A stretch of DNA of 18,523 nt from positions 1 through 18,523 of the forward strand of contig JACQVL010000020.1 of the NCBI GenBank assembly GCA_016209865.1, written 5' to 3'. The first letter of the stretch is position 1; each line of letters begins with the position of its first letter. Under the pieces are notes generated by a model. The model saw nothing but the letters and a program-made list of their open reading frames with translations, was not told where the DNA came from and did no database searches. The translations under genes were made by a program, and so were the position numbers. Positions 1,238 to 16,647 of the stretch are shown here, piece by piece. This DNA is from Candidatus Latescibacterota bacterium. Lineage in GTDB: Bacteria; JAAXHH01; JACQVL01.

Positions 1238-2380
1238 ATGGACCTCGAGCTTACCGAGCAGCAGCGGCTCTTCCGCCAGAGCATCCGCGACTTCGCCCGC
1301 AAGGAGGTGGCCCCCCTCGCCGCCGATATTGACGAGCGCGAGCGCTTCCCCACCGAGCTGGTGAGCAAGATCGCCGACCTGGGGCTCTTCGGCCTCACCA
1401 TACCGCCAGCCTTCGGCGGGCAGGGCGGCAGCGAGCTAGAGGCCATCATCGCCACCGAGGAACTGTCCTGGGCCTGCCCCTCCACCGCCCTGGTCTGGGG
1501 CGCCAGCGTCTCCCTGTGCGCGCACTCCATCCTGCACGGTGGCAGCGAGGCGCAGAAGAGGCGGTTCCTGCCGCCCCTGGCCGGCGGGAAGCGGCTGGGC
1601 GCCTTCGCCCTCAGCGAGGCCAGTTGCGGCAGCGACGCCGTCGCCCTGCGCTGCCACGCCCGCCGCGACGGCGACGACTACGTCCTGAACGGCACCAAGT
1701 ACTGGATCACCAATGGCGCCGAGGCCGACACCCTGGTCATCTACACCACCGTGGACCCCTCCCTGCGGGCCAAGGGCATAACCGCCTTCGTGGTCGAACG
1801 GGGCATGAAGGGCTTCAGCGTGGGCAAGCTGGAGCGCAAGATGGGCATCCGGGGCACCTCCCCGGCCGAGCTCGTCTTCAACGACTGCCGGGTACCGGCC
1901 GACAATCGCCTGGGCCTGGAGGGTGCCGGCTTCCGCCTGGCTATGGAGATCATAGACGGCAGCCGCGTGGGCATCGGCGCCCAGGCCCTAGGCATCGCCC
2001 AGGCGGCCTACGACGCCGCGTTCAGCTACGCCAGGCAGCGCCAGGCCTTCGGCCAGGCCATCGTCAGCTTCCAGGCCATCCAATGGATGCTGGCCGACAT
2101 GGCGACCGAGCTGGACGCCGCCCGCCTGCTCACCTACCGGGCGGCCTGGATGAAAGACCAGGGCATGGACTACGCGCGCGCGTCCGCCATGGCCAAGCTG
2201 TACGCGTCGGAGACGGCTAACAGGGTAGCCACCGAAGCCATCCAGGTCCACGGTGGGTACGGGTACATCCGGGATTTCAACGTGGAACGCTACTTCCGGG
2301 ACGCGCGGATCACCTCCATCTACGAAGGCACCTCCGAAGCGCAGCGGATCGTCATCTCGCGGAGCATTTTGAAAGAATAG
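1238..2380 (+). CDS. Acyl-CoA dehydrogenase
   Basis: The 380-residue length is standard for short/medium-chain acyl-CoA dehydrogenases, FAD enzymes that make the alpha-beta double bond of acyl-CoA thioesters and pass electrons to ETF. The N-terminal helical domain starts LTEQQRLFRQSIRDFARKEV. The middle beta-domain carries the FAD/substrate motif AFALSEASCGSD. The C-terminal domain ends with VHGGYGYIRDF and IYEGTSEAQRIVI. Glu363 of the YEGT motif is at the usual catalytic-base position. An SD-like AGGAG lies 6-11 bases before the ATG. Chain-length or branched-chain specificity cannot be assigned by eye. The upstream mutase suggests a propionyl- or branched-chain-linked route. Confidence 0.95.
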   Translation: MDLELTEQQRLFRQSIRDFARKEVAPLAADIDERERFPTELVSKIADLGLFGLTIPPAFGGQGGSELEAIIATEELSWACPSTALVWGASVSLCAHSILHGGSEAQKRRFLPPLAGGKRLGAFALSEASCGSDAVALRCHARRDGDDYVLNGTKYWITNGAEADTLVIYTTVDPSLRAKGITAFVVERGMKGFSVGKLERKMGIRGTSPAELVFNDCRVPADNRLGLEGAGFRLAMEIIDGSRVGIGAQALGIAQAAYDAAFSYARQRQAFGQAIVSFQAIQWMLADMATELDAARLLTYRAAWMKDQGMDYARASAMAKLYASETANRVATEAIQVHGGYGYIRDFNVERYFRDARITSIYEGTSEAQRIVISRSILKE

Positions 2381-2540: not shown

Positions 2541-3677
2541 ATGGGCATCTACGAAGAACTTGGCCTCCGGCGCGTCATCAACGGAAACGCCACTCTCACC
2601 CGGCTCGGCGGTTCGCTCATGCCGCCGGAAGTCCTGGCCGCCATGGCCGAGGCGGCGGGCGCGTTCGTGGACATCGAGGTGCTGCAAGCGCGGGTCGGCG
2701 AGGAGATCGCCCGGCTGACGCGCAACGAGGCGGCGTATGTGTCCTGCGGGGCGGCGGCTGGCCTCGTCCTGAGTACGGCCGCGTGCATGACCGGCCTCGA
2801 CCCGGAGAAACGGGAGCGATTGCCGAACGTCGACGGGATGAAACACGAGGTCATCGTCCACCGGGGGACGCGGACGCCGTACGATTTTGCCATCCGCCAG
2901 ACCGGGGCGAAACTCGTCCTGGTCGGCACCGCCGAACGGACGGCGCCGGAGGAGCTCGAGGCCGCGATCACCGAACAGACCGCCGCGATCTTCTATTTCC
3001 CGAACGCCCACCGCGACCACATCGCCGTCCCGCTGGATCAGGCCATCGAGATCGCTCACCGGCACGGCGTCCCGCTGATCGTGGATGCGGCCGCGCAGCT
3101 CCCGCCCGCCAGCAACCTGTGGACGTTCACCCATCGCGGTGCCGACCTGGCACTCTTCAGCGGCGGGAAAGGGCTGTGCGGCCCGCAGTCGAGCGGCCTG
3201 AGCGTCGGCCGGCGCGACCTGATCGAGGCGATCCGGTTCAACGGCCCGCCGAAGCCGTTCATCGGCCGGCCGATGAAGGTGGGCAAGGAGGAGATGGTCG
3301 GCCTCCTCGCCGCCGTCCGCTGGTACCTCAGCCTCGACCACGAGGCGCTTCTCGACCGGTATGAGCGACAGGTGCAGGCATTCATCGATGCGTTGGGCAA
3401 CCTCCCCGGCCTTGCCGTCCGCCGGGACTTTCCGAATGAGGCAGGCCAGCCGATGCCCCGTGCGGAGATCACGGTCGACCCGGCACGGCTCGGCCTGACG
3501 GCCGAGGAGATGCTCCGCCAGTTGCTCGACGGCGATCCCTGCATCGACCTCGGAGGCGGAGGGGGCAATCGCATCCTGGTCAACCCGCAGACGCTCGCGC
3601 CGGACGAAGAGCAGATCATCATTCGGCGCATCGAAGAAATCGTCGAGCGACGCAGCCGGAGGCGGCGAGGGAGGTAG
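2541..3677 (+). CDS. SelA-like PLP-dependent enzyme (aminotransferase/ammonia-lyase-like)
   Basis: This 378-residue fold-type I PLP protein is of the SelA-like branch (SelA, DgaE). The N-terminus YEELGLRRVINGNATLTRLG matches the typical start. The ring-nitrogen Asp is in VDAAAQ (Asp182). The Schiff-base lysine is Lys210 in the diagnostic FSGGKGLCGPQSSGL segment. Known non-SelA members include D-glucosaminate-6-phosphate ammonia lyase, and others probably act on D- or hydroxy-amino compounds by elimination. True SelA is longer and works with SelB/SelC, which are absent here. AAGGA ends 6-7 bases before the ATG at 2541. It is the first gene of the plus-strand cluster, and the next gene starts 5 bases after its stop. 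The substrate is unknown. The last residues are a basic tail (RRSRRRRGR). Confidence 0.85.
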   Translation: MGIYEELGLRRVINGNATLTRLGGSLMPPEVLAAMAEAAGAFVDIEVLQARVGEEIARLTRNEAAYVSCGAAAGLVLSTAACMTGLDPEKRERLPNVDGMKHEVIVHRGTRTPYDFAIRQTGAKLVLVGTAERTAPEELEAAITEQTAAIFYFPNAHRDHIAVPLDQAIEIAHRHGVPLIVDAAAQLPPASNLWTFTHRGADLALFSGGKGLCGPQSSGLSVGRRDLIEAIRFNGPPKPFIGRPMKVGKEEMVGLLAAVRWYLSLDHEALLDRYERQVQAFIDALGNLPGLAVRRDFPNEAGQPMPRAEITVDPARLGLTAEEMLRQLLDGDPCIDLGGGGGNRILVNPQTLAPDEEQIIIRRIEEIVERRSRRRRGR

Positions 3678-3682
3678 GAACT

Positions 3683-4624
3683 ATGCCCCGACCGATGAGC
3701 CATATCCCGATCATCGACGCCCACGTCCATTTCTTCTCCCCCAATTTCATCACGGGGTACGCGACGTTGGGGAAAGCGCGACTCCCCTCGGATGATCCAG
3801 TTGGCGGGCTCCTTCGCCTGATGGGATGGGAGATGGAGACGGCCGACCCGGTGGCGCTCGGACAGCGATGGGTGCGGGAGATGGACGCCCGTGGCATCGC
3901 CCGGATGGTGCTGATCACGAGCTGGTTGGGAGATGAAGAGGCGACCACGACGGCCGTCCGGGCGTTCCCCGACCGGCTCAGCGGGTACGTGATGATCAAC
4001 CCGACGCAACCGGACGCGGCCGAACGCGCTAGGCGGGCGATCGGGGAGCTCGGACTCAGGGGGGTGACGCTGTTCCCGGCGATGCACGGCTTCCGCGCGT
4101 CGGATCAACACGTCTACTCGGTTTACGAAGCCGCGTCAGCGGCGGGTGTCCCGGTCTTCGTCCATTTCGGCATCCTGAAGGTCGGCATCCGGGACAAGCT
4201 CGGCCTCGTCAGCAAGTTCGACCTGCGGCTGTCCAACCCGCTCGACCTGCTCCTGGTTGCTAAAGATTTTCCGGCCACGACGTTCATCATCCCTCACTTT
4301 GGCTGCGGGTATTTCCAGGAGATGCTGATGGTGGCGGCCCAGTGCCCGAACGTGTGCGTCGATACCTCCAGCTCCAACTCCTGGGTCCGCCTGATGCCCT
4401 GTCCACTCACACTGAAAGACGTGTTCGCCAAGACACTCGACGTGCTCGGACCGGAGCGGGTCCTGTTCGGATCGGACTCGACCGCCTTCCCGAAGGGCTG
4501 GCGACAGGAGGTGTTCGAGGCGCAGGTGGAGGCCTTGCAGGCGCTGGGCCGGACTGAGGAGGATCTCACGCGCATCTTCGGGGGGAATGCGGCGAGAGTG
4601 TTGGGGATCAATATGAAAGGATAG
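3683..4624 (+). CDS. Amidohydrolase-2 family metal-dependent hydrolase
   Basis: This is a 313-residue TIM-barrel hydrolase of the amidohydrolase-2 (COG2159-type) family. Visible metal and active-site positions are the N-terminal DAHVH motif (His14, His16), His161 in VFVHFG, His205 in IIPHFGCGY and Asp265 in LFGSDS, the expected order for this superfamily. Members hydrolyse C-N bonds or decarboxylate or hydrolyse cyclic and aromatic acids, usually with one Zn or Mn. GGGAGG lies 8 bases before the chosen ATG. An in-frame ATG at 3698 is a weaker alternative. The 5-base gap from the SelA-like gene suggests one transcript and translational coupling. The substrate is not predictable. It may hydrolyse an amide or carboxylate intermediate made by the neighbouring PLP enzyme. 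Confidence 0.88.
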
Positions 4625-4635
4625 TATCCCAAGTT

Positions 4636-5427
4636 ATGAATAAAAGAATTAGAGCAGATAAACGGGTTTTAAGCGTTCGCGAACAGTTAGAGCTCTATCC
4701 AACCCCAAGAAAACAGGGGAAGAGAAAGTCGCCAGATGGGGTGACCACGAGCGAGTTAATCTGTACAGCCCATTCTGGAATGAATGAGGATGTGTTTCCG
4801 TTAGTACTGAGTCTCCATGTGCCTCCAGATTCTGTAGTCGCTGATATTACTTATGGTACGGGCATCTTTTGGAAGAAGATTCCGAAGGGGAAATACAAGT
4901 TGCTTGCCACGGATATTAAAATGGGAGTAGATTGTCGCAAGTTGCCTTATGATGATGCCGCTATTGACTGTGTAGTCTTGGATCCTCCATATATGGAGGG
5001 GTTGTATAGAGGTGCCACAAGCCAGTTGGCTGGTTCAGGAACCTATGCTGCCTTCAGGACCACCTACTCAAACGGAGAGCGGACAGGAACGGGGCCTAAA
5101 TATCATGATGCGGTACTTGACCTTTATTTCAAGGCCGGTCGGGAGGCATACAGAGTCTTACGAAAATACGGGATTTTGATTGTCAAATGCCAGGACGAGG
5201 TGAGTGCGAATACTCAGCGACTAACCCATGTGGAGATCATTAAAGAGTATGAATCTATAGGCTTCTATACGAAGGATTTGTTTGTCGTAGTGAGGCCCAA
5301 CAAGCCTGCTGTCAGCCGCATCAAGAAGCAGGAACATGCAAGGAAAAACCATTCGTACTTTCTTGTCTTCGTAAAGACGATGGGCGAGAACCCCCGCAGA
5401 AAGGGATTGTGTAATGGGTGTTCTTGA
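4636..5427 (+). CDS. DNA methyltransferase (N6-adenine/N4-cytosine type)
   Basis: This 263-residue SAM-dependent methyltransferase has a divergent SAM-binding motif I ([13 protein letters not shown], about 68-80) followed by the catalytic motif IV DPPY at 116-119. DPPY marks amino-methyltransferases acting on adenine N6 or cytosine N4. An N-terminal [12 protein letters not shown] segment may be motif X. The order I then IV rules out the beta class. The gene differs sharply in composition: row 4921-4980 has 27 G/C of 60, against 42 of 60 in row 6241-6300 of the next gene. It also uses AT-ending codons. It interrupts an otherwise functionally uniform metabolic cluster, and its SD is weak (AAGGA about 14 bases upstream). 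It is best read as a horizontally acquired restriction-modification methylase. Its overlapping partner at 5414 is truncated. The target sequence is unknown. Confidence 0.88.
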
Positions 5428-5488
5428 ACGATGGGAACTCACCTCCGAGGAGCTTGATAAAATCGTGTCTGCAAGACGAGAACCCTGA
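5414..5488 (+). pseudogene. 24-codon stub, likely truncated restriction-endonuclease partner of the methyltransferase
   Basis: An ATG at 5414 overlaps the methyltransferase 3' end by 14 bases and has a good SD (AAAGGGA, about 7 bases upstream). It reads [20 protein letters not shown] followed by RREP, then TGA at 5486. The start region looks like a genuine protein N-terminus, amphipathic and acidic, in the AT-richer composition of the methyltransferase. The frame ends as the sequence switches back to the GC-rich cluster. Methylase genes are often followed by an overlapping endonuclease gene, so I infer a deleted endonuclease. A genuine tiny peptide or leader for the next gene is possible but less likely. 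Confidence 0.5.
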
Positions 5489-5509
5489 AGGGGAGAACGG
5501 GAGGACACC

Positions 5510-6778
5510 ATGCCTGAATCTCTGGCAATCGACGGCGGGACGCCGGTGCGGACGGCAACATGGCCGGCGATGTTTCCGGGGGGGACGGAGTACGGCGAGG
5601 AAGAGAAACGCGCGGCGATCGAGGTGATCGAGGCGCAGTCGCCGTTCCGGTACTACGGGACGAACCTCCTCAAGAAAGTCGACCAACTCGAAGCGGCGTA
5701 CGCCCGGTACGTCGGCACCCGGTTCGCGCTGGCGACGCACAGCGGGAGTACGGCGCTCTCGGTCGCTATCGCGGCGCTCGGCGTCGGCCCCGGCACGGAG
5801 GTCATCCTGCCCGCGTTCATGTGGATCGCCGACGTCAACGCGGTCATCCATCTCCGCGGGATTCCCGTCCTGGCCGAGATCGATGAGACGCTCAACCTCG
5901 ACCCGGCCGACATCGAGAAGCGGATCACGAAGCGAACGAAGGCGATCGTCGCCGTGCACATGGCTGGATCGGTGGCGGATATGCCCGCCATCAAAGCGGT
6001 GGCGGATAAACACGGCATCCCGGTGCTCGAAGACTGCTCGCAGGCGGCGGGGGCTTCGATCGACGGCCACGTCGTCGGCTCGATGGGGGCGATCGGGACG
6101 GTCAGCCTTCAGTACAACAAGAATTTCACGACCGGCGAAGGGGGCATGATCACGACCAGCGACGACGTCTTGTTCCGCCGTGCGATCTGTTTCCACGACG
6201 GCGGATTCGAGCGGGACATGCAGGGCGTCTCCATTCCCCGGGATTCGCCGTTCGAGACGTGGGGCATGGGGGCGCGGATGGACGAATTGCGCGGGGCGGT
6301 CGGCCTCGTCCAGCTCGGCAAGCTCCCCGACATCGTCCGCCGGATGCGCGGCCATCAGCTCCGGCTGCGCGAGGCGCTCGGCAAGCTCCCCGGCATTCAC
6401 CTCCGCCGGCTCGTCGACCCGAACGAGGACAGCGGGGCGTATTTCACCTGGCTCCACGACACGACGGACGCGGCTGAACGGTTCACAACGGCGCTCAAAG
6501 CTGAGGGCATCCCGGTCAGCCCGCCGCACGGGGGCATCCATCAGTACCGGCACATGTCCAACCTCCTCAAGAACGTGCCGGTCACGACCGAAGGGTGTCC
6601 GTGGACGTGCCCGTTCAACAAGGAAAGCCCGATGGAGTACAACGCGTCGATGCTGCCCCGGAGCAACAGCCTGCTGGATCGGGCACGGCTGATCTCCCTC
6701 CCACCCAGCCTGACTGAGCAGGACGAGGATGACATCATCCGGGCCTTCCGGAAGGTGGCGCGAGTTGTGTTGGGATAA
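5510..6778 (+). CDS. DegT/DnrJ/EryC1/StrS-family PLP aminotransferase
   Basis: This 422-residue fold-type I aminotransferase is of the DegT family. These enzymes usually transaminate keto-sugars or, in the AHBA-synthase/L-glutamine:scyllo-inosose branch, cyclic ketones. The N-terminus LAIDGGTPVR is the family hallmark. THSGSTAL (77-83) binds PLP phosphate. EDCSQAAGA (174-182) carries the ring-nitrogen Asp175. The Schiff-base lysine is Lys204 in SLQYNKNFTTGEGGM. A GGGAGG SD lies about 5-6 bases before the ATG. No sugar-nucleotide genes are nearby, so a nucleotide-sugar role is not supported by context. An amino-donor or acceptor step in the surrounding amino-compound pathway is the inference. 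The methyltransferase island now separates it from the amidohydrolase. Confidence 0.9.
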   Translation: MPESLAIDGGTPVRTATWPAMFPGGTEYGEEEKRAAIEVIEAQSPFRYYGTNLLKKVDQLEAAYARYVGTRFALATHSGSTALSVAIAALGVGPGTEVILPAFMWIADVNAVIHLRGIPVLAEIDETLNLDPADIEKRITKRTKAIVAVHMAGSVADMPAIKAVADKHGIPVLEDCSQAAGASIDGHVVGSMGAIGTVSLQYNKNFTTGEGGMITTSDDVLFRRAICFHDGGFERDMQGVSIPRDSPFETWGMGARMDELRGAVGLVQLGKLPDIVRRMRGHQLRLREALGKLPGIHLRRLVDPNEDSGAYFTWLHDTTDAAERFTTALKAEGIPVSPPHGGIHQYRHMSNLLKNVPVTTEGCPWTCPFNKESPMEYNASMLPRSNSLLDRARLISLPPSLTEQDEDDIIRAFRKVARVVLG

Positions 6779-6810
6779 CATTCCCTGCCTCTCCGACCCA
6801 TCCCTTCTTG

Positions 6811-6886
6811 GGCAATGGGCAGATGGGCAGTAGGCAGTGGACGGGGGAACGGCTTCGACTGCCCACTGCCTATTGCCCACCTGCCC
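6811..6886. repeat. Heptamer repeat element C: inverted GGCA-type arms
   Basis: The left arm (about 6808-6840) has GGCA cores at 6811, 6818, 6826 and 6833, a spacing of 7 to 8 bases. The right arm (about 6858-6886) is its inverse. GGGCAGTAGGCAGTGG at 6825-6840 pairs with 6863-6878 at 15 of 16 positions, with a loop of only 22 bases. The element lies between the DegT and class V aminotransferase genes and is followed directly by the G-rich repeat at 6887. Confidence 0.75.
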
Positions 6887-6916
6887 GGAGAGGGGCCGGG
6901 GGTGAGGGACACAAGG
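6887..6916 (+). repeat. Half copy of the G-rich GGAGAGGGG...GGTGAGGG repeat
   Basis: GGAGAGGGGCCGGGGGTGAG and the next ten bases repeat, with about three differences, the right arm of the inverted repeat at 11789-11820. Both copies lie directly ahead of a gene, and the AAGGAG at its end is the SD of the class V aminotransferase-like gene. No left arm is present here. Confidence 0.75.
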
Positions 6917-6931
6917 AGACGATCATCCATC

Positions 6932-8107
6932 ATGGACAACACTGAGACTGAAACGCTTTCCTCCGACGATCAGTTCTGGGCTGAGATTCGTCGGAATCAT
7001 TTCCTCCTCAACCCGGAGGTCACGTTCCTGCAAGGCGGGTCGGTCGGGCCTTCCCCCAGGCCGGTCGTCGACAAGGTCACCGAATCGATCCGGGCGTTCG
7101 AGAGCGACCCGCTCCATCATCAGGGCGTCTTCCATCCGCTCGTCCAGGAAGCGCGCGAGAAACTGGCGGCGTTCGTCGGGGCGCATCCCGACCGGATCGC
7201 CTTCGTTCAGAACACGACGATGGGGATGAGCGTCCCGGCCCAGGGACTGACGTTCAAGGCCGGGGACGAGGTTCTGATGACCGACCAGGAATACCCGGCC
7301 GTCTCCGCGTGCTGGTGGTACATCGCGGAACGCTATGGGATGACGATTCGGACCGTCGAACTCCCCCTCGCCATCGAGAGCCCTGAACAGATCGTCCGGG
7401 CGATGGCGTCGGGCATCACGCCCAACACCCGCGTTCTGGTCGTCTCCCATGTCTACTGGACGACCGGACTCGCCATCCCCCTCACAGAATTGGTGCGACT
7501 CGGCCGGGATCACGGCCTGTGGGTCATCGTCGACGGCGCGCACGCCGTCGGGATGGTGCCGCTGCGACTGGACGACGCCCATCCTCATTGTTACATCTCC
7601 AGTTGTCACAAATGGCTGCTGTCCGCGAAGGGGACCGGGATGCTGTACGTGTCGGATGATGCCCAGGATCATGTTCGCCCGCTTATCTTAGGCAGGAACG
7701 TTTACCCCAACCCGAAGGCGAGCCGGTTCGATATGGTAGGAACGCGGGACATGACCCCTTTCCTCGGCCTGGCGGTGGCCATCGATTTCCAGATGTCCAT
7801 CGGCTGGGAACGGATTCGCGCCTACTGTCAGGGCCTGGCAGGCTATCTCAAGGAACGGGTAAAACGGATCAAAGGGGCACGGGTGCTGACCCCGGCCGAC
7901 CCGACGCTGTCCGGGTTCATCACGACGTTCACGATCGACGGGGCGGACCTCCCCAAGCTGCAACAGCAGTTGTGGCACGAGGCGCGCATCGAGACGACGT
8001 GTTTTCACATCCGGAACATCCCGGTGTTCCGCATCTCGACCCATTTCTACAACAGCCGTCAAGATATCGATAAGCTCGTCAGCGAGATCCAGAAACGGCT
8101 GTCGTGA
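6932..8107 (+). CDS. Class V aminotransferase-fold PLP enzyme (isopenicillin N epimerase/cysteine desulfurase-like)
   Basis: This 391-residue fold-type I PLP enzyme begins its domain with FLLNPEVTFLQGGSVGPSPR, like isopenicillin-N-epimerase-type proteins. FVQNTTMGMS (91-100) binds PLP phosphate. VIVDGAHAVG carries Asp201 and His204. The Schiff-base lysine is Lys227 in YISSCHKWLLSAKGTG. Members catalyse epimerisation, desulfuration, kynureninase-type cleavage or transamination, and the sequence does not decide which. The frame is open further upstream, to an ATG at 6815, but that stretch translates repeat DNA (element C). I chose ATG 6932, which has AAGGAG about 13 bases before it. It belongs to the plus-strand PLP gene cluster, and the D-threonine aldolase-like gene follows after 37 bases. 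Confidence 0.87.
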   Translation: MDNTETETLSSDDQFWAEIRRNHFLLNPEVTFLQGGSVGPSPRPVVDKVTESIRAFESDPLHHQGVFHPLVQEAREKLAAFVGAHPDRIAFVQNTTMGMSVPAQGLTFKAGDEVLMTDQEYPAVSACWWYIAERYGMTIRTVELPLAIESPEQIVRAMASGITPNTRVLVVSHVYWTTGLAIPLTELVRLGRDHGLWVIVDGAHAVGMVPLRLDDAHPHCYISSCHKWLLSAKGTGMLYVSDDAQDHVRPLILGRNVYPNPKASRFDMVGTRDMTPFLGLAVAIDFQMSIGWERIRAYCQGLAGYLKERVKRIKGARVLTPADPTLSGFITTFTIDGADLPKLQQQLWHEARIETTCFHIRNIPVFRISTHFYNSRQDIDKLVSEIQKRLS

Positions 8108-8144
8108 ACGTGTATGTCGCGTTGCATAATCGTGAGGATCTGTC

Positions 8145-9245
8145 ATGCCGCAACATCCCCATCCCGCCATCGGCCTACAAGTCACCAGCCTCGATACCCC
8201 CTCCCTTTTGGTCGACCTTGATCGTTTCGAACGGAACGTGGCGGCGATGGCTGCCTACTGCGAGCGCGTGCCCGTGAACCTGCGACCGCATGCGAAGACG
8301 CACAAGTGCCCTGAGATCGCCCGCCGGCAGGTCGAGGCGGGCGCGATCGGGATCACGTGCGCGAAAGTCGGGGAAGCGGAGGTCCTGGTCGAGGGGGGAC
8401 TCTCGGACATCCTGATCGCCAACGAGATCGTCGGTCCCCAGAAGATCGAGCGGCTGATGGCCCTCGCCCGCCGGGCGGACATGATGGTCGCGGTCGATCA
8501 TCCACGGAACGTCGAGGCTCTGTCTGACGCGACCGTTCGAGCGGGCGCCCGGTTGCGCGTCCTCGTCGACGTAGACATCGGCATGGGACGGTGCGGCGTC
8601 CCGCCGGGAGATGCGGCGGTTGAACTGGCCCAGCACGTGGCGCGCGTGCCCGGCCTCGTCTTCGCCGGAGTGATGGGCTACGAAGGCCATACTGTGGACA
8701 TCCCCGACCGGTCGGAACGGCGGCAGAAGACGACGGAGGCGGTCGCTCACCTGCTGGAGACGAAGGATCGCATCGAACGGCTCAGCATCCCGGTCGAGAT
8801 CGTCAGCGGCGGCGGGACGGGCACGTACGACATCACCGGCCCCTTCGGGGTGACGGAACTCCAGGCAGGGTCGTACATCTTTATGGATACGACCTACCGG
8901 AAGGTGCTCCAGGGCTTCGAGCACGCCCTGTTCGTCCTGGCGACCGTCATCAGCCGTCCGACGGCTCGCCGGGTCATCACGGACACCGGGGTGAAGACGT
9001 TCGCAGGCGACTACGGCCAGCCAGCGTTTCGGGACATCCCGGACGCGACGCTGGAGTCCCTCTCCGAAGAACACGGGAATTTCCTCCTGAACGAGGATAG
9101 CGATGTCCCGGAACTCGGAGAGAAGGTGATCCTCATGCCGGGGCATTGTTGTACGACCGCCAACTTGCACGAGGAGTATTACGTCATCCAGGATGGCCGC
9201 GTGGTCGATGTGTGGCCGATCGCGGCGCGGGGGAAGTCGCGGTGA
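8145..9245 (+). CDS. D-threonine aldolase / D-serine dehydratase-like PLP enzyme (fold type III)
   Basis: This 366-residue protein has an alanine-racemase-like barrel. The PLP lysine is Lys51 in LRPHAKTHK, the phosphate loop is SGGGTGTY (221-228), and the C-terminal metal loop is PGHCCTTANLH with His334 and Cys336. The ending VWPIAARGK matches D-threonine aldolases and 3-hydroxy-D-aspartate aldolase (BhcC). The metal pair here is His-x-Cys. From memory this is the zinc site of D-serine dehydratases, whereas aldolases use His-x-Asp. A beta-hydroxy-D-amino acid is the probable substrate, either cleaved to glycine plus aldehyde or dehydrated to an oxo acid plus ammonia. GTGAGGA lies about 8 bases before the ATG. 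The transporter gene follows after 15 bases, so the two are probably co-transcribed. Confidence 0.87.
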   Translation: MPQHPHPAIGLQVTSLDTPSLLVDLDRFERNVAAMAAYCERVPVNLRPHAKTHKCPEIARRQVEAGAIGITCAKVGEAEVLVEGGLSDILIANEIVGPQKIERLMALARRADMMVAVDHPRNVEALSDATVRAGARLRVLVDVDIGMGRCGVPPGDAAVELAQHVARVPGLVFAGVMGYEGHTVDIPDRSERRQKTTEAVAHLLETKDRIERLSIPVEIVSGGGTGTYDITGPFGVTELQAGSYIFMDTTYRKVLQGFEHALFVLATVISRPTARRVITDTGVKTFAGDYGQPAFRDIPDATLESLSEEHGNFLLNEDSDVPELGEKVILMPGHCCTTANLHEEYYVIQDGRVVDVWPIAARGKSR

Positions 9246-9260
9246 AACGAAGGAGGCGGC

Positions 9261-10775
9261 ATGGCAGACAGGGCGAGAGAGGTGTCCCAGGAACGACTCG
9301 ATGAACCCATCGGTGCGACCGTCGAGGCGGGACGGTTGCCGCCGTGGACGGTTGCGCCGTTGCCCGCCCCGCCCCGATTTACCCTGAAGAGCGCCCTGGC
9401 CGTCATGGGTCCGGGCGTAATCATGCTCTCCGCGTCCATCGGGAGTGGGGAATGGATCCTGGGCCCCGCCCTGGCCGTGCAGATCGGGTATTCCATCCTG
9501 TGGATCGTCACGGTCGCAGTGTTCACGCAGATGATCCTCAACGGCGAATTCATGCGATATACCCTCTACACCGGCGAGCCGATCCTGGTCGGTTTCATGC
9601 GCACCAGTCCGGGACCGACCTTCTGGGGATGGACGTATTTCCTGATCCTGATGTTGAGCTACGGCTGGCCTGGCTGGGCCGGAGGGAGCGCGGCGGTCCT
9701 GTTCGCTCTGGCGAAGGGACGTTTGCCCGATCCCAATATGCCGGGGGATTCGACGACGCAGACCCTCATCGCTGGCGTCGTGTTTCTCGTCTGTATCGCC
9801 CTCCTCGGCTTCGGCAGCCGGGTGATCGAGCGCGGTCTGGAGAAGCTCAACTGGTTCATCGTCGCCTGGATCTTGCTCTTCCTGGTCGTCGCGTGTGTCG
9901 TCTTCGCCCCGTTGAGCACGTGGGGGAGCCTGCTCAAGGGGTTTCTCAGCTTCGGCTCGCTTCCCCCGTCCGGCACCGACTACCTGCTCTTAGGAGCGGT
10001 CGCCGGGTATGCGGCCGGCGGAGGGATCGCCAACTGCGCCGTCAGCCACTGGTGCCGGGATAAAGGGTTCGGGATGGGAGGCGTCACCGGGTACATCCCG
10101 AGCATGATCGGCGGGAAAGAGATCCGGCTGTCGAACGTCGGCCGGGTGTTCGCCCCGACTCCGGAGAACGTGTCGCGCTTCCGGGAGTGGTGGAAGTATG
10201 TCGCCGCCGATCAGTACATCCTCTACGGCCCCGGCGCGTTCATGGGGATGTTCCTGTGCATCCTGTTAGCCGTGGCGGTCATCCCGGCCGGGACGAAGAT
10301 GACCGGCCTGGGAATCGGCGCCTATCAGGCGGAATACCTCGGTCAGGTCGGGGGAAGCCTCCTCCGGGTGCTCACCCTGTTGACCGGGTTCTGGATCCTG
10401 TTCGGCACCCAGCTCGGCATCGTTGATTTTTGCGTTAGGATGAGCACGGACATCGCCTGGGCGGGGAGTGAGCGGCTGCGCCAGTGGGCAGGAGGCGACC
10501 CACGGAAGCTGTACTACGCGATGTTGCTCGTCTTCGTCGTCTGGGGGGTCATCGCCCTCAACCTCGCCGCGCCATTCGCCCTGCTCCAACTGCAGGCGAA
10601 TATGGCGGCGTTCGTGTTCGTGATCATCAGCGTCCACGTGCTGATCGTCAACCGGAAACTCCTGCCGAAGGAGCTTCAGCCCGCGACGTGGCAACAGGTC
10701 GCCGTGACCTGTAACGCCATTTTCTACGCGGTCTTTACCGTGATGGTGATCGGTCGATGGGTGAAGGTGTGGTGA
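9261..10775 (+). CDS. Divergent Nramp-like membrane transporter
   Basis: This 504-residue polytopic membrane protein has about a dozen hydrophobic segments, beginning around residue 43 after a 40-residue hydrophilic N-terminus. The overall look is Nramp/COG1914 (APC superfamily fold). The first membrane segment reads MGPGVIMLSASIGSGEWILG, so the DPGN metal motif is replaced by GSGE. The sixth-segment MPH motif appears as GIAN in GGGIANCAVSHW. A canonical Mn/Fe site is therefore not present, and the substrate may be another cation or an organic molecule. A strong SD (AAGGAGG) lies 5 bases before the ATG. It sits directly downstream of the D-threonine aldolase-like gene, and uptake of the cluster's substrate is a reasonable inference. 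Confidence 0.83.
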   Translation: MADRAREVSQERLDEPIGATVEAGRLPPWTVAPLPAPPRFTLKSALAVMGPGVIMLSASIGSGEWILGPALAVQIGYSILWIVTVAVFTQMILNGEFMRYTLYTGEPILVGFMRTSPGPTFWGWTYFLILMLSYGWPGWAGGSAAVLFALAKGRLPDPNMPGDSTTQTLIAGVVFLVCIALLGFGSRVIERGLEKLNWFIVAWILLFLVVACVVFAPLSTWGSLLKGFLSFGSLPPSGTDYLLLGAVAGYAAGGGIANCAVSHWCRDKGFGMGGVTGYIPSMIGGKEIRLSNVGRVFAPTPENVSRFREWWKYVAADQYILYGPGAFMGMFLCILLAVAVIPAGTKMTGLGIGAYQAEYLGQVGGSLLRVLTLLTGFWILFGTQLGIVDFCVRMSTDIAWAGSERLRQWAGGDPRKLYYAMLLVFVVWGVIALNLAAPFALLQLQANMAAFVFVIISVHVLIVNRKLLPKELQPATWQQVAVTCNAIFYAVFTVMVIGRWVKVW

Positions 10776-10780
10776 GAGAA

Positions 10781-10922
10781 TCAGCGACGAGTGACGAGAG
10801 GAAGATGGATTCCCGCTTTCGCGGGAATGACTACTTTTTGTTGTGTAGCATCTTATGGAGAACTGGTAGAACATAAATGAATCATGTTTTCTCGTTACTG
10901 GTCACTCGTCACTCGTCACTGC
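10781..10922. repeat. Heptamer repeat element B, copy 1, with REP-like hairpin
   Basis: Inverted arms of the 7-base unit GTGACGA bound this element: AGCGACGAGTGACGAG at 10783-10798 and CTCGTCACTCGTCACT at 10905-10920, with 15 of 16 positions complementary. Inside, GGATTCCCGC, TTTC, GCGGGAATGAC (10807-10831) forms a perfect 8-bp stem with a 4-base loop, followed shortly by a T-run. The element fills the gap between the transporter stop and the SD of the creatininase gene. The hairpin may weakly terminate or stabilise the mRNA. Confidence 0.85.
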
Positions 10923-10941
10923 TCTTGAAAGGAGCCCTTTC

Positions 10942-11697
10942 ATGCGAGACAAGCGTGTCTTCATCGGAGACCTCACCCGGAAGGAATTCCGGGAGATGAT
11001 CGAGAACGGGACGATCAAGGCAACGATCGTGCCGACGGCGGCGACGGAGCAGCACCTCGAGCACCTGGAGATGATTCACGACACCGCCAGCGTCACCTAC
11101 ATGGCCCACCAGGCTGCTCTGACGCTCTACCCGTCCGTCGTCGTGGCGACACCCATCCCCATCGGGGTCTCGGAGCACTGGATGGCCCACAAGGGGACGC
11201 TCACCGTCCGAAAGGAGGTCTTCACCGAGTACGTGTACGACGTCTGCGACGCGCTGAAACGGGGCGGAGTGAAGACGATCCTGATCCTCAACGGCCACGG
11301 GGGCAACGTCCGGCCGATGATGGAACGGATGGAGGAATACCGGCAGAAGCTCGGCATCAACGTCCGGTTCAACTCGTACTGGGACGTCTACCCGCCTGAG
11401 GTGGTGTACCGGTACATGGAGGCGGGCTCGCTCCCCGGTCATGCGGACGAGTTCGAGACATCGATGGCGCTCGCCCTCTTCCCGGAACGGGTCCATGCCG
11501 GGGATATGGAGCAGGAGAGCACGGCCAAACTGGGCACGGTGGAAAAAGGACAGGGACTCATCCAGCCCGCCGTGGACGGAGTGGTGGACATCCTGAAGAA
11601 GATGATCGCCGGGGTGGAGGTCGATCTCGAACCCCGGTCGTTCGGCCCGACCGGCGCCCGGTCGATGGTGCGTGATGCGATGATTCAGAAGCGGTGA
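10942..11697 (+). CDS. Creatininase-family metal amidohydrolase
   Basis: The 251-residue length is normal for the creatininase family (creatinine amidohydrolase, FAPy deformylase, IolN, MftE). Likely metal ligands are Glu36, His38 and Asp47, at the family spacing E-x-H...D (+11), and His119 in NGHGGN (117-122). The C-terminal GHADEFETSMAL (166-177) supplies the conserved Glu. The usual first motif EQHGPHLP is changed to EQHLEHLE, which should alter the substrate pocket. The family hydrolyses cyclic or linear amides, so a lactam-, hydantoin- or formamide-type intermediate is plausible in this cluster. AAAGGAG about 8 bases before the ATG sets the start. It lies between element B and the G-rich inverted repeat. 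Confidence 0.9.
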   Translation: MRDKRVFIGDLTRKEFREMIENGTIKATIVPTAATEQHLEHLEMIHDTASVTYMAHQAALTLYPSVVVATPIPIGVSEHWMAHKGTLTVRKEVFTEYVYDVCDALKRGGVKTILILNGHGGNVRPMMERMEEYRQKLGINVRFNSYWDVYPPEVVYRYMEAGSLPGHADEFETSMALALFPERVHAGDMEQESTAKLGTVEKGQGLIQPAVDGVVDILKKMIAGVEVDLEPRSFGPTGARSMVRDAMIQKR

Positions 11698-11698
11698 G

Positions 11699-11820
11699 CC
11701 CTCACCATCCCCCGACCCCTTCCTCTCCCACAAGGGGCGAGAAAGGGGGAGTCCTTCACAAGAACGCTTGTCTCCCCTCTCCCCGCCGTGGGAGAGGGGT
11801 CGGGGGTGAGGGGCACACAG
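11699..11820. repeat. Inverted repeat D, C-rich left arm and G-rich right arm
   Basis: The left arm (11699-11730, CCCTCACCATCCCCCGACCC and on) is complementary, with a few inserted bases, to the right arm TGGGAGAGGGGTCGGGGGTG and on (11789-11812), enclosing about 58 bases. It starts 2 bases after the creatininase stop codon and ends at the SD of the next gene. The right arm also occurs alone at 6887-6916. Formation in mRNA could attenuate the downstream genes. Confidence 0.8.
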
Positions 11821-11829
11821 GGAGGCATG

Positions 11830-12840
11830 ATGGTCAAGATTGTTTACTCCGACAAGCTCGGCCGCACGATCCGCCAGGATGACCTGTCGACACTCGGTCT
11901 GTCCAGCCAGACGCTGACGGAGGAGGCGCTCCGGTCGGGGCGCTATGAAAACGCCATCGAGCTGGTCACCTACTTCCATCAGGAAATGCGGATCATGCAC
12001 GGCATCCTGATGACGTGGATCAAGGACCTCTTCCGCCAGATGCTCACTCGTGGACAGTTCCAGGGAGATATCCCGGCGACAGTCATGGCGATCGCCCGGG
12101 CGTTCGAGACAGTGCCGCTTGGCGTCGCGCCGCGTGAGCAGACGATCCAGGCCATCCGGGTCGGGGACGTGGAGGCGGCCGTCGACTGGCTCGACCGGAT
12201 GCGGCTGGAATTCAAGAACCCGCATGAGATCCTCGTCCCCTGGGTCCACGACCTGCTGACCAACCTGGCCGAGACGTACGGGGAGGAAGAGGTGCTCCAT
12301 TCCATCACGGAGACGGTCGACCAGATCTGGGGGCCCCGGTACGCGACATGGGATCAGATGACCCCGGAGGAAAAGCTGCAACTGACCGTCGAGGGCATGA
12401 GGGGCGGGCATTTCAGCGGCCCGCAGCGGCGTGGGGATGTGCAGCTCGCTGACGAGGGCGACCGGTATCGCATCGCGTTCGACCCGTGCGGGAGCGGTGG
12501 AGTGATGCGGCGCGGCGACCCGGAAACCGGCCGGGCTCCGTACCCGACGACGGGCCTGAACACACACCCGCACCTGTGGACGTGGCAGAAGACGGGCGTC
12601 CACTGGTACTGCACGCATTGCTGCATCACGATGGAATTCCTGCCGGGCCGCCGTCGGGGCCATCCGATGCGTCCGTTGGATCATACCTTAGACCACAGCG
12701 CGCCGTGTGTCTGGTATATCTATAAGGATGAAACACAGACACGGGAGTATCATTACCCACGAACGGGACTGGAGAGAAAATCAGTGACGAGTGACGAGTG
12801 GCCAGTTAGATCACTTCTCTGGAGCAATGGTCTAGACTGA
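11830..12840 (+). CDS. Uncharacterised protein with FDPCGSGG and CTHCC motifs
   Basis: I do not recognise a named family. From ATG 11830 the protein has 336 residues. The N-terminal two-thirds is mainly helical and acidic. The C-terminal third holds FDPCGSGG, a Trp/His-rich TTGLNTHPHLWTWQKTGVHW, YCTHCCI, then HTLDHSAPC, a set of Cys and His residues that could bind a metal or cofactor. I recall similar DPCGSGG plus YC-HCC pairs in unnamed hypothetical proteins but cannot name a function. ATG 11827 also exists, but the GGAGG at 11821-11825 spaces better to 11830. The frame extends upstream to ATG 11788 only by reading repeat D. The last 20 or so residues translate repeat B (SVTSDEW), so the native C-terminus was probably shorter. 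It lies between the creatininase and solute-binding-protein genes. Confidence 0.8.
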   Translation: MVKIVYSDKLGRTIRQDDLSTLGLSSQTLTEEALRSGRYENAIELVTYFHQEMRIMHGILMTWIKDLFRQMLTRGQFQGDIPATVMAIARAFETVPLGVAPREQTIQAIRVGDVEAAVDWLDRMRLEFKNPHEILVPWVHDLLTNLAETYGEEEVLHSITETVDQIWGPRYATWDQMTPEEKLQLTVEGMRGGHFSGPQRRGDVQLADEGDRYRIAFDPCGSGGVMRRGDPETGRAPYPTTGLNTHPHLWTWQKTGVHWYCTHCCITMEFLPGRRRGHPMRPLDHTLDHSAPCVWYIYKDETQTREYHYPRTGLERKSVTSDEWPVRSLLWSNGLD

Positions 12841-12907
12841 GACTCTCTGTTGTCATTCCCGCGAAAGCGGGAATCCATTCATCTTTTTCTCTCGTCACTC
12901 GTCACTG
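12781..12907. repeat. Heptamer repeat element B, copy 2 (inverted), with REP-like hairpin
   Basis: AGTGACGAGTGACGAG at 12783-12798 and CTCGTCACTCGTCACT at 12891-12906 form a perfect 16-bp inverted repeat. The internal hairpin at 12852-12876 is the exact reverse complement of the 25-base hairpin at 10807-10831. It sits near the right arm instead of the left, so the whole element is inverted relative to copy 1. The left arm overlaps the 3' end of the upstream gene, and the right end stops just before the AAGGAG of the next gene. Confidence 0.87.
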
Positions 12908-12927
12908 CCTTCAGAAGGAGTCTTCTC

Positions 12928-14184
12928 ATGCCCACCTTACGCGTCATCTACCGGGAATTCATCGGGTTCGAACACGCCCTCGCCAAGCAGGCGGAGTATT
13001 TCCGACAGCGCCATCCCGACGTCACGCTTGAGTTTACCCACTCCGATGTTCCACCTCTCTATGAGACGATGATCGCGAAGAACGGGGTATTCACCGACCA
13101 GTACGACGTGTTCCTGTGCCTGACGGACTGGCTCCCCGAGCTGATGAAATCGGGTGGGCTGACCCGGTTGAACGACGACCTGGCGCAAGACCCGCCGGAC
13201 GGCTGGCCAGATGGCTGGACGGACAGCATGACGCGGCTGCAGCGCGACCGCGCCGGGAACATCTACGGCCTGCCCTACCACGACGGCCCGGAGATGTTCA
13301 TGTACCGAACCGACCTGTTCGACGACCCGCATGAGCAGGAGGCATTCCGGAAGCAGACCGGTGTGCCGCTCCGCCCGCCCGAGACGTGGTCGCAGTTCCT
13401 GGACATCGCCACATTCTTCACCCGGCCAGACGATGGACTGTACGGGTGTCTCGTCGCCGCGTACCCGGACGGGCACAATACGGTGTACGATTTCATGATC
13501 CACTTGTGGAGCCGGGGCGGCCAGATGCTCGACGCGCGCATGCGTCCGGTCTTCAACCAGGCTGAGGGAGTTGAAGGCCTCCAGTTTTACGTCGACCTGA
13601 TCAACGTGCATCGCGTCGTCCCGCCGGAGGTGTTCGAGTTCGAGAGTGTCAAGTCGGGCCACTACTACGCGGGTGGTGGATCGGCGATGATGTGGAATTG
13701 GTGCGGGTTTGCGGCGCTGGCGGAGATTCCCGAGCTGTCCAAGATCGTCGGCAACAACCGGTGTACCGTCATCCCGCGCGGAGACGGGCCGAACGGACGG
13801 CATATGTCCCTCAATATCTACTGGGTGATGACGATTCCATCAGGCTGCGCACAGAAAGCTCTCGCCTACCAGTTCCTGAAGACCACCGCCTGCGCGGCGA
13901 TGGACAAAGTGACTTCGCTTGAAGGGGGGAACGGGACACGCCTGTCCACCTGGCGCGACCCGGATGTGCAGCGCCAGTTCAGGTATTATCAGATGATCGA
14001 ACGGGTCCATCAGAACGTCGAAAGCCCGCCGACCATCCCGGAATACCCGGCGATCAACGAGGTGCTCAACCGGGCGATCGATGATGCGCTGCATGGCCGG
14101 AAAGCGGTCAAACAGGCCTTAGACGAAGCGGCGGAGGAGTCGGAGGAGATCCTCAGCAAGGCAGGGTATTACAAACAGGCATGA
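12928..14184 (+). CDS. ABC-type solute-binding protein (SBP_bac_1 family) without visible signal peptide
   Basis: This 418-residue protein has the SBP family 1 (MalE-like) layout: an opening strand LRVIYREFIGF, YDVFLCLTDWLPELMKSGGL, a LTRLNDDL segment, GNIYGLPYHDGPEMFMYRTDLF, WSQFLDIATFF, AMMWNWCGFAAL and a C-terminal helical tail. AGAAGGAG about 8 bases before ATG 12928 fixes the start. The protein then begins MPTLRVIYREF, with no signal peptide or lipobox. The open frame continues to ATG 12850 only by translating repeat B and its hairpin (MSFPRKRESI), which is an artefact. No ABC permease or ATPase genes are adjacent. It may be a cytoplasmic ligand-binding protein, or the export signal was lost. 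The long aromatic-rich pocket region suggests a sugar- or amino-type organic ligand, not specified. Confidence 0.85.
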   Translation: MPTLRVIYREFIGFEHALAKQAEYFRQRHPDVTLEFTHSDVPPLYETMIAKNGVFTDQYDVFLCLTDWLPELMKSGGLTRLNDDLAQDPPDGWPDGWTDSMTRLQRDRAGNIYGLPYHDGPEMFMYRTDLFDDPHEQEAFRKQTGVPLRPPETWSQFLDIATFFTRPDDGLYGCLVAAYPDGHNTVYDFMIHLWSRGGQMLDARMRPVFNQAEGVEGLQFYVDLINVHRVVPPEVFEFESVKSGHYYAGGGSAMMWNWCGFAALAEIPELSKIVGNNRCTVIPRGDGPNGRHMSLNIYWVMTIPSGCAQKALAYQFLKTTACAAMDKVTSLEGGNGTRLSTWRDPDVQRQFRYYQMIERVHQNVESPPTIPEYPAINEVLNRAIDDALHGRKAVKQALDEAAEESEEILSKAGYYKQA

Positions 14185-14286
14185 GAGTTTGGGAATGTAA
14201 GAATGCTGAAGTGGGGAGATGTAAACGACCAAAGAGGGCAACACTACTTTACTCTCCTCCTCCTATACCCCCACATTTTCCTTACT
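14185..14286. other. Convergent intergenic gap with degenerate inverted arms
   Basis: This 102-bp region lies between convergent genes. A left stretch (about 14186-14216, GTTTGGGAATGTAAG and on) and the reverse complement of about 14269-14297 (GTTTGAATGAAGTAAGG and on) share an imperfect inverted match ending in TGGGG. No classical hairpin plus T-run terminator is visible. It may be a decayed repeat of the same general kind as A to D. Confidence 0.35.
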
Positions 14287-14904
14287 TCATTCAAACAGCG
14301 CCGTATCCCCCTTCCCCTTCCGGATCACCACCGGTTCCTCGCCTGTGAGGTCGACGACGGTCGATGGCTCGGACACCAGGATGCCGCCGTCGACGATGAC
14401 GTCGACCACCTTCCCGAACCGCGCCTCGATGTCTGCGGGGTTGTTGAGGATTTCGTCCTCGTCGCGCGTGACGCTCGTGCTCACGATCGGATGGCCGAGT
14501 TCCCGGACGATGGCCAGACAGATTTCATTCTCCGGCACCCGGATGCCCACCGTCTTCCGTTTGCTGACCATCACCTTGGGGACGAGGCGTGAGGCCTCCA
14601 GGATGAAGGTGTAGGGGCCGGGGAGGAGCCGCTTCATCAGACGGTACGATGTGTTGGAGATGTTCTTCGCGTACTGCGCTAAGTCGGTGAGGTCGGCGCA
14701 CACGAAACTCAGCGGCTTCTTGAGAGATTCCTGTTTAATCTGATAGATGCGTTCGATCGTCTTCTTATTGAAGATGTCGCAGCCCAGACCGTAGATCGTG
14801 TCCGTCGGGTAGACGATCACCGCGCCGGTCAAGAGTTCGCTCACGATCCGGCGAACCTGCCGGGGCTGCGGATACTCCGGGTTCACGACGAGATGGAGGG
14901 CCAT
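14287..14904 (-). CDS. YciO/Sua5/YrdC-family protein
   Basis: The 205 residues equal the length of E. coli YciO, and the sequence is recalled as YciO-like throughout: VIVYPTDTIYGLGCDI (30-44), KKPLSF, MKRLLPGPYTFIL (90-102), KRKTVGIRVP (115-124), STSV, and the closing TVVDLTGEEPVVIRKGKGD. The fold binds double-stranded RNA or nucleotides. The TsaC/Sua5 relatives make threonylcarbamoyl-AMP from threonine, bicarbonate and ATP for tRNA t6A, while the YciO branch is generally regarded as lacking a clear t6A role. The start at 14904 is one base past the threonine aldolase stop (TGA-T-ATG), giving tight translational coupling. Pairing a threonine-handling fold with a threonine aldolase is suggestive, but the link is not proven. 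Confidence 0.88.
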   Translation of the reverse strand: MALHLVVNPEYPQPRQVRRIVSELLTGAVIVYPTDTIYGLGCDIFNKKTIERIYQIKQESLKKPLSFVCADLTDLAQYAKNISNTSYRLMKRLLPGPYTFILEASRLVPKVMVSKRKTVGIRVPENEICLAIVRELGHPIVSTSVTRDEDEILNNPADIEARFGKVVDVIVDGGILVSEPSTVVDLTGEEPVVIRKGKGDTALFE

Positions 14905-14905
14905 A

Positions 14906-15946
14906 TCACCCCGCCTGGTTTTCCCGCGCCAGGACCGACTGGCAGACGTCCACCGCCCGGTCGATCTGTGCACGGCTGACGTCAAGATGCGTGACCGCTC
15001 GAATCGTCCGCGGGCCGGTCGCCAGCATGAGAACACTGTGTTCGCGCAGGCGTGTAATAACGTCGGGGGCACTCAACCCCCGGCGAAGCCCGAAGTAGAC
15101 GATGTTCGTCTGGATCTCCTCGACGTTGAGGTCGACCGCCGGACTGGCCGCCAGGCCTTCCGCCAATCGCCGCGCGTTCGCGTGATCGTCCGCTAATCGA
15201 TCGATGTTGTGCTCGAGCGCATACAAGCCCGCCGCGGCGAGAATCCCCGCCTGGCGCATCCCTCCGCCGTACATCTTCCGGTAGTACGCCGCCCGCTCGA
15301 TCATCTCCCGATCCCCGACGAGCACGCTGCCGACCGGCGCGCCCAGTCCCTTGGAGAGGCAGATAGAGACCGTATCGACATGCCGCGCATACTCGCGCGC
15401 CGGTCTGCCACTGGCCACGCAAGCGTTGAACAGCCGGGCGCCGTCCATGTGCACCCGGATCCCCCGCTCCAGGGCGAACGCCCGGATGTCAGCTAAGACG
15501 TCGATCGGGAAGATCGCCCCGTTCGCACGATTATGCGTGTTCTCGACGGCGATCAGCGCAGTTCGCCCGTAGTGGACGTTCTTCGGCCGGACGACCTGGG
15601 CGATCTGGTCGCGGGTGATCGTCCCGCGTTGACCGTGCAACAGTCGCGCCTGGACCCCGGCCAGCGCCCCTAAGGCTCCCGCTTCGGCGTTGAAGACGTG
15701 CGCGTGCTCTTCGACGACGATCTCCTCCCCGTGATGCGTCTGGGCGCGGACCGCAAGTTGATTCCCCATCGTCCCGCTCGTCACGAACAGGCCGGCCTCT
15801 TTTCCCAGCATCGTCGCCATCGCCTCCTGGAGCCGGTTTACCGACGGGTCTTCACCGAAGACGTCGTCGCCGACCTCCGCGTTCGCTATCGCCTGCCGCA
15901 TCGCCTTCGAAGGCCGGGTCACGGTATCGCTGCGTAGATCGATCAT
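14906..15946 (-). CDS. Low-specificity L-threonine aldolase
   Basis: This is a 346-residue fold-type I PLP enzyme of the beta-eliminating lyase/threonine aldolase family, cleaving L-threonine or L-allo-threonine to glycine and acetaldehyde. The start MIDLRSDTVTRPS is the family hallmark. Other motifs are VGDDVFGEDP, the HAHVFNAEAG active-site region (about 81-90), VHMDGARLFNA with Asp168, and the Schiff-base lysine Lys199 in ICLSKGLGAPVGSVLVG. I chose ATG 15946 because GGGAG lies 9 bases upstream. ATG 15952 is only 3 bases from it, and the longer frame to 16012 reads the REP-like repeat. It is transcribed with the YciO-like gene and probably with the RsbW-like gene. L-stereospecificity contrasts with the D-type aldolase-like enzyme at 8145. 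Confidence 0.92.
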   Translation of the reverse strand: MIDLRSDTVTRPSKAMRQAIANAEVGDDVFGEDPSVNRLQEAMATMLGKEAGLFVTSGTMGNQLAVRAQTHHGEEIVVEEHAHVFNAEAGALGALAGVQARLLHGQRGTITRDQIAQVVRPKNVHYGRTALIAVENTHNRANGAIFPIDVLADIRAFALERGIRVHMDGARLFNACVASGRPAREYARHVDTVSICLSKGLGAPVGSVLVGDREMIERAAYYRKMYGGGMRQAGILAAAGLYALEHNIDRLADDHANARRLAEGLAASPAVDLNVEEIQTNIVYFGLRRGLSAPDVITRLREHSVLMLATGPRTIRAVTHLDVSRAQIDRAVDVCQSVLARENQAG

Positions 15947-15985
15947 CTCCATGATCTCCCTCGCTAAGATGAGGCGAAAAAGAAT

Positions 15986-16051
15986 GGATTCCCGCTTGCG
16001 CGGGAATGACAATCATGCACTGTCACCCTGTTTTCTCGTCACTCGTCACTG
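15986..16051. repeat. Repeat element B, copy 3, one-armed, with REP-like hairpin
   Basis: The hairpin GGATTCCCGC, TTGC, GCGGGAATGAC (15986-16010) matches copy 1 except in the loop (TTGC for TTTC). It is followed by one arm, CTCGTCACTCGTCACT (16035-16050), preceded by TTTT as in copy 1. No opposing arm is visible beyond AAAAAGAAT just left of the hairpin. It lies in the gap between the RsbW-like and threonine aldolase genes, upstream of the latter's SD. Confidence 0.8.
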
Positions 16052-16067
16052 CTTTTCCCCTTCTTTT

Positions 16068-16511: not shown

Positions 16512-16647
16512 AGCGCTCACTCCATGAAGAGAGACACTCCTCCAGGGCATCTCGAAGGCTTCTGTCTCATCACGTGGTCAGACACGCGGCGTGATGCACG
16601 TCGCCAGCGGACTCAACCCGCGACCTCCAGACCACCGTCCTGACATC

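Follow-up and report, generated by a model that had tools for sequence, protein, structure and literature searches.

Enzymes of the DegT family are mostly biosynthetic aminotransferases. The beta-hydroxyaspartate cycle (BhcA-D) has a BhcC enzyme beside other pyridoxal phosphate (PLP) enzymes, and the creatininase family comprises creatininase, MftE, IolN and ArfB. For D-serine dehydratase it has been described that the metal is held by a His and a Cys and that the base His of the D-threonine aldolase AxDTA is absent (PMC4401734), and outgroups of the Slc11 (Nramp) transporter family that diverge at the metal site have also been reported (PMC10606218). Here we analyse a stretch of DNA from a Candidatus Latescibacterota bacterium (contig JACQVL010000020.1) in which relatives of these families lie together. 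The window, by which we mean the whole stretch of 18,523 nucleotides, is an entire contig of a 3.75 Mb draft genome that is 83% complete. Open reading frames and profile searches with Pfam and NCBIfam place ten plus-strand genes, A to J, in a single run at 2541-14184 (Table 1). An earlier note, made from the sequence alone, had listed nine of these genes as lying in one direction; all nine are present and the profile matches agree with the families it gave, while gene C, which is DNA methylase-like, had gone unmentioned. The four unlike PLP enzymes that it named are likewise borne out, as A (SelA-like), D (DegT), E (class V) and F (alanine-racemase fold) have the family matches and keep an intact Schiff-base Lys motif in the alignments. 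Part of the run is conserved in relatives, and we tentatively propose that this part is a metabolic module.

Conservation of the D-E-H grouping

The phylum sample consisted of 16 genomes, 12 of them from one genus. It was searched with the joined A, B, D, E, F, G and H proteins, after which the loci were read, and a second search was made with J, X and C, where X is a Cys/Met-type PLP enzyme (PF01053) found between E and H in most relatives. D and E occur together in 14 of the 14 relatives examined in the order, with identities of 74-81% for D and 61-69% for E. In one of these (G013) two genes are inserted between them, judged by eye to be an AAA-type ATPase and a DUF4276-like gene (L063:3412-5199), possibly a defence-type pair. 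H orthologues are 73-89% identical and in most relatives come after E (and X or G). The order in genus g3 is D-E-X-H, intact in most genomes and cut by contig ends in G011 and G013, and X occupies the E-H interval in g2, g3 and g5 genomes. Copies of X within g3 share about 87-94% identity over the length of X, and the window's genome offers at best a 42% match. Where relatives have X, the E-H interval of the window holds F and G, the window's genome being incomplete.

Further variants of this order are found. G015 has D-E-X on a 4 kb contig, G001 has B-D-E-X, and G014 has an acyl-CoA dehydrogenase gene followed by B-D-E-G-H, as compared with B-C-D-E-F-G-H in the window. B thus adjoins D in two other genera, at 75% identity in G014 and 72% in G001, and the G relative placed after E in G014 is 74% identical. 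The acyl-CoA dehydrogenase directly upstream of B in G014 (L058:6725-7873) is 45% identical to g1, which together with the end of a methylmalonyl-CoA mutase gene extends the run of the window upstream. The grouping of D-E-X/G-H also changes its location: it adjoins Sua5 and LtaE in the window, lies about 95-107 kb away from them in G006 and G008, and is on a separate contig from them in other relatives. That the grouping persists while its surroundings change speaks for a unit.

The earlier note had made the matter turn on whether homologues of these genes are ever neighbours in other genomes. This is the case for B, D, E, G and H, while the phylum searches found no matching neighbour for A, C, F, I and J in any relative. 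The best identity within the phylum is about 45% for the A family, where the gene is not beside B, and 50% at most for F. The E and F families are expanded in the relatives' genomes. A second cluster in relatives (L081, L082 and L083) carries divergently arranged paralogues of E (about 50%) and F (41-43%), and in these F paralogues YTD replaces the HxC/HxD metal motif.

At strict E-value limits, which could hide weaker relatives, the searches found the full cluster only within its order. With the same limits, and the same reservation about weaker relatives, E and H had no match in Chloroflexota, Planctomycetota or the phylum of G026, and D reaches only 39-47% identity there. Searching plasmids with D, E, G and H returned distant matches only, all below 60% identity, and no similar cluster, and a literature search for the gene set, like one for IolN, returned nothing relevant. 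Parts of the cluster do occur in other phyla. D homologues (43-45%) adjoin Amidohydro_2 genes in two Planctomycetota loci (L101 and L102), and a Chloroflexota locus (L112) combines a D homologue (40%), an F homologue (42%) and an Amidohydro_2 gene. The Amidohydro_2 protein of the latter locus is of the same family as B and not close to it.

A possible metabolic module and its alternatives

We suggest, at somewhat less than an even chance, that a conserved metabolic module lies within the run and that genes specific to the lineage have been added to it. D, E and H would form this module; in some genera B precedes D, and the interval between E and H is taken by X or, in the window, by F and G. 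The module probably handles a nitrogen or amino compound. This suggestion is based on the constant pairing of D and E, on B-D-E-G-H in G014 and on the position that X takes between E and H in g2, g3 and g5 genomes. It also draws on the association of D with Amidohydro_2 genes in Planctomycetota, to which an F homologue is added in Chloroflexota, and on the organic-compound genes near relatives of G, the loss of the DPGN motif in G and the foreign composition of C, which are described below. In such a module a compound with an amide- or lactone-like bond would enter through G, and B and/or H would hydrolyse the ring or bond. D would then transfer or remove the amino group, E and F (or X) would perform an elimination step, and the products would flow into central metabolism. 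C, the pair of I and J, and A would be later additions that need not participate. Gene content, conservation, the alternation of X with F and G, the composition of C and the active-site residues are observed; for the most part we infer the mechanism, namely its direction (breakdown), the class of substrate and the organic cargo of G. A bolder proposal is that D-E-X-H, with its B, F and G variants, is an undescribed pathway, in a phylum about which little is known, with at least three PLP enzymes and a creatininase-fold hydrolase, and that G belongs to a branch of the Nramp fold which carries an organic nitrogen compound rather than a metal; that both parts hold together seems to us possible but doubtful.

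Several observations weigh against a module. No enzyme scores above a function-specific NCBIfam cut-off, and only the broad Nramp_1 model was passed. H of G001 is on a different contig, away from D-E-X, and the neighbours of G relatives are varied, without one constant partner. The phylum sample is small, with most of its genomes from one genus. A phytanoyl-CoA-dioxygenase-like (PhyH-like) gene, judged by eye, follows several g3 clusters and would fit biosynthesis equally well. Finally, the control block K-L-M (Sua5, LtaE and HATPase) on the right flank, searched for in the same way, likewise stays grouped in most relatives. On its own, synteny may mean no more than that the order has undergone limited rearrangement. 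Since the control flank is syntenic too, synteny within the order is not extraordinary by itself and our claim of linkage is a moderate one.

The PhyH-like oxygenase leads to the question whether D-E-X-H instead builds a modified amino compound, such as an amino-sugar, a cyclitol derivative or a sulfur-containing amino acid, which we consider conceivable though rather unlikely. D scores above the PF01041 cut-off and carries the active-site Lys motif LQYNKNFTTGEGG, as expected of the DegT/DnrJ/EryC1/StrS family, and its relatives would suit such a role: its nearest solved structure is KdnA (5k8b), and it also matches scyllo-inosose aminotransferases. The same can be said of E, nearest to the solved structures of the C-S lyase C-DES (1elq) and of PvdN (5i90), and of X, nearest to the models of methionine gamma-lyase and cystathionine gamma-synthase. 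But H, G and B, the last of which retains the motifs HxH, FVHFG, PHFG and FGSDS, suit uptake and hydrolysis, and we recognised neither a carrier protein nor a ligase or export gene in the vicinity of the clusters. Moreover, certain D homologues from Chloroflexota adjoin dimethylglycine-dehydrogenase-like and homocysteine-methyltransferase-like genes, which also speaks against biosynthesis.

It is unlikely, in our view, that the genes share no function at all and that the cluster reflects ordinary synteny in a small order together with chance accretions. Such an explanation would be in line with the control block, which is equally kept together, and with the expansion of the E and F families in the relatives' genomes. 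Yet D-E-H stays grouped while its surroundings change, and two other phyla also show the combination of D with Amidohydro_2. The conserved module is our tentative reading. For an uncultured lineage, this repeated cluster of unlike PLP enzymes and a hydrolase is a concrete and testable lead to a pathway that has yet to be assigned.

Probable later additions and the flanks of the run

Table 1. Features of the window, with their positions, strands and family matches
Feature	Position	Strand	Match	Description
	2..715			End of methylmalonyl-CoA mutase
g1	1238..2380	+	PF00441/PF02771	Acyl-CoA dehydrogenase, possibly upstream run member
A	2541..3677	+	PF03841 49 bits, TIGR01437 245.6 bits	SelA/DgaE-like PLP enzyme, fold type I; accessory
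B	3683..4624	+	PF04909 136.9 bits	Amidohydrolase-2 family protein
C	4636..5427	+	PF01555	N6/N4 DNA methylase-like (N6_N4_Mtase), between B and D
D	5510..6778	+	PF01041 263 bits	DegT-family PLP enzyme, Lys204; core
E	6932..8107	+	PF00266 145.5 bits	Class V PLP enzyme, Lys227; core
F	8145..9245	+	PF01168+PF14031	D-threonine aldolase / D-serine dehydratase-fold PLP enzyme, fold type III; accessory
G	9261..10775	+	NF037982 (Nramp_1) 193 bits, cut-off 50	Divergent Nramp-fold transporter
H	10942..11697	+	PF02633 136 bits	Creatininase-fold hydrolase; core
I	11830..12840	+	No Pfam or NCBIfam match	Cys/His protein without family
J	12928..14184	+	PF01547 88 bits	Family 1 solute-binding protein (SBP_bac_1)
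K-L-M	14284..16514			Control block (Sua5, LtaE, HATPase)
	14909..15952	-	Beta_elim_lyase	Fifth PLP enzyme
	16847..18010	+	No Pfam or NCBIfam match	Protein without family

The most fitting interpretation of gene C is that it was recently inserted between B and D from a foreign source. Its GC content (0.465) and its GC content at third codon positions (GC3, 0.496) are low compared with 0.61-0.70 and 0.80-0.95 for the other genes, the phylum search found no homologue, and B and D, its neighbours in the window, share a 4-base overlap in G014.

We read I and J as a separate pair, given that in Chloroflexota I adjoins MetE-like and solute-binding-protein genes. The named relatives of I are mostly from Anaerolineae (Chloroflexota), where the gene is often found after a MetE-like gene and often before solute-binding-protein genes with permeases; two relatives at 55-57% identity are both beside a MetE-like gene. 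The protein consists of a helical N-terminal half and a C-terminal part with the invariant residues C220, C261, H263, C264 and C293. Its structural model (predicted local distance difference test score, pLDDT, 83.7) gave no Foldseek match at E<=0.001, and a second fold search returned only helical-bundle rows with Z of about 7 over residues 12-147, which cover the helical half only. A weak B12-binding_2 signal is seen in 5 of the 16 members of the I family (best E 0.0017). Shorter relatives of I precede acetoacetate-decarboxylase-like genes in Phycisphaerales (L020:10133-11628) and, as judged by eye, in Ignavibacteriales (L023:1-1241). At E<=1e-25 the phylum search returned no homologue of J, and no ATP-binding cassette (ABC) permease or ATPase gene is present among the window genes. 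From its start codon ATG at 12928 J reads MPTLRVIYREF, with no obvious signal peptide as judged by eye only.

The intergenic gaps measure 5 bases (A-B), 11 (B-C), 82 (C-D), 153 (D-E), 37 (E-F), 15 (F-G), 166 (G-H), 132 (H-I) and 87 (I-J). A single transcript spanning all ten genes is doubtful, because the gaps after G and I (G-H and I-J) contain dispersed repeats, ATGGATTCCCGCTTTCGCGGGAATGAC being one example. The intergenic gaps carry, at 10805-10834, 12849-12885 and 15977-16012, dispersed palindromes (GGATTCCCGC...GCGGGAAT) and repeats of the GTGACGAGTGACGAG type.

These observations bear on the pathway proposed in the earlier note, in which all the listed genes would serve the uptake and breakdown of a D-amino, beta-hydroxy amino or cyclic amide compound. 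A complete catabolic pathway of ten genes is decidedly unlikely: no relative has matching neighbours for A, C, F, I and J, C is foreign, in other genomes I is associated with MetE-like and solute-binding-protein genes, and F is without the aldolase residues. What speaks for it is the directional run with some short gaps (A-B, B-C and F-G) and the fact that A and F by family suit beta-hydroxy-alpha-amino acids. The D-amino or beta-hydroxy amino chemistry is plausible for these two enzymes, with the qualification that two residues on which catalysis by D-threonine aldolase depends are missing from F; for cyclic amides we have one hint only, a relative of G beside caprolactamase-like CapAB genes.

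In A, Lys210 lies in an SGGK motif, and the nearest solved structures are 8t7j and DgaE (7lc0). In comparison with DgaE, the D-glucosaminate-6-phosphate ammonia lyase, A matches TIGR01437 over its full length but stays below both DgaE cut-offs (245.6 against 385.3 bits, and 225 against 600 bits). F has the Ala_racemase_N and D-ser_dehydrat domains in common with the family of D-threonine aldolase, BhcC and eukaryotic-type D-serine dehydratase. Its sequence is closest to the D-threonine aldolases 7dib (299.9 bits) and 4v15, and D-serine dehydratase reaches only 120 bits. The aldolase His-x-Asp metal pair (His347 and Asp349 in AxDTA) is replaced by H334-x-C336, with GHCC aligned to SHVD, and Asp185 stands at the aligned place of the AxDTA base His193. 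On two features, the His-x-Cys pair and the lack of a base His, F would fit the Zn-dependent D-serine dehydratase. As the His-x-Cys pair and Asp185 are as in D-serine dehydratase and the aldolase residues are missing, F is, by its aligned residues, better called a candidate D-beta-hydroxy amino acid lyase or dehydratase than an aldolase.

On the right flank, the minus strand carries a fifth PLP enzyme next to the run, beside Sua5 and the HATPase gene; by its family, Beta_elim_lyase, it is of the L-threonine-aldolase type. The last protein of Table 1 is 58-59% identical in three other genera, where it is found near LtaE.

Transporter G and comparison with known systems

The structure prediction for G (mean pLDDT 77) has DraNramp (6d91) as its best Foldseek match, with an E-value of 6.5e-10 and a template-modelling score (TM-score) of 0.64 by query and 0.78 by target length, and the other best matches are also Nramp or MntH structures. 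G is therefore predicted to have the LeuT/Nramp fold in common with SLC11/Nramp, in addition to its match to NCBIfam Nramp_1, but it differs in having neither the DPGN motif nor a match to PF01566. At the aligned place of DPGN, the metal site in transmembrane helix 1 (TM1) of Nramp, G has GSGE, and G61, G63, E64 and W65 are invariant in nine relatives. The Pfam Nramp family PF01566 gave no match in any of nine G members up to E=1, and no MPH motif (TM6) was seen in the alignment of these members, a region not aligned to a solved Nramp. Judging from its sequence, G may belong to the Slc11 outgroups that have diverged at the metal site.

Relatives of G with 40-49% identity are found in Chloroflexota, Planctomycetota and the phylum of G026. 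One in Chloroflexota (L068:4929-11208) adjoins caprolactamase-like CapA and CapB genes, which are below the model cut-offs. Others are near malate/lactate/ureidoglycolate dehydrogenase (L092 and L094) or mannonate dehydratase (L096), and one (L075) is near a citrate-lyase-type lyase with M24 proteins. Because GSGE replaces DPGN and the relatives adjoin genes of organic catabolism, an organic substrate is more likely for G than a metal. That G is a true divalent-metal importer feeding the metal-dependent B, F and H would agree with the Nramp_1 score and the Foldseek matches, but is very improbable given that GSGE, fully or almost fully conserved in nine relatives, stands where Nramp has the metal-binding DPGN, that these members have no Pfam Nramp match and that relatives lie near organic-compound genes. 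Relatives with GSGE occur in several phyla and are called divalent metal transporters by the curated model, so they may be misannotated.

H has PF02633 and the EQH...D and NGH motifs in common with the creatininase family. It is equally weakly similar to the models of IolN, creatininase and MftE (67, 66 and 65 bits, against cut-offs of 245, 235 and 172), with 65.8 bits for TIGR04448, the model of creatininase proper, whose cut-off is 235; H has NGHGGN where creatininase has NGHYEN. Like the beta-hydroxyaspartate cycle, the window has a BhcC-like enzyme beside other PLP enzymes. We rejected the cycle itself on model scores, as BhcA reaches 33 bits at best (E, cut-off 650) and F scores 317 bits with the BhcC model NF045642, below its cut-off of 690. 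Compared with these systems, the run is made of known families in a combination without an assigned pathway, and consists of a conserved core with later additions.

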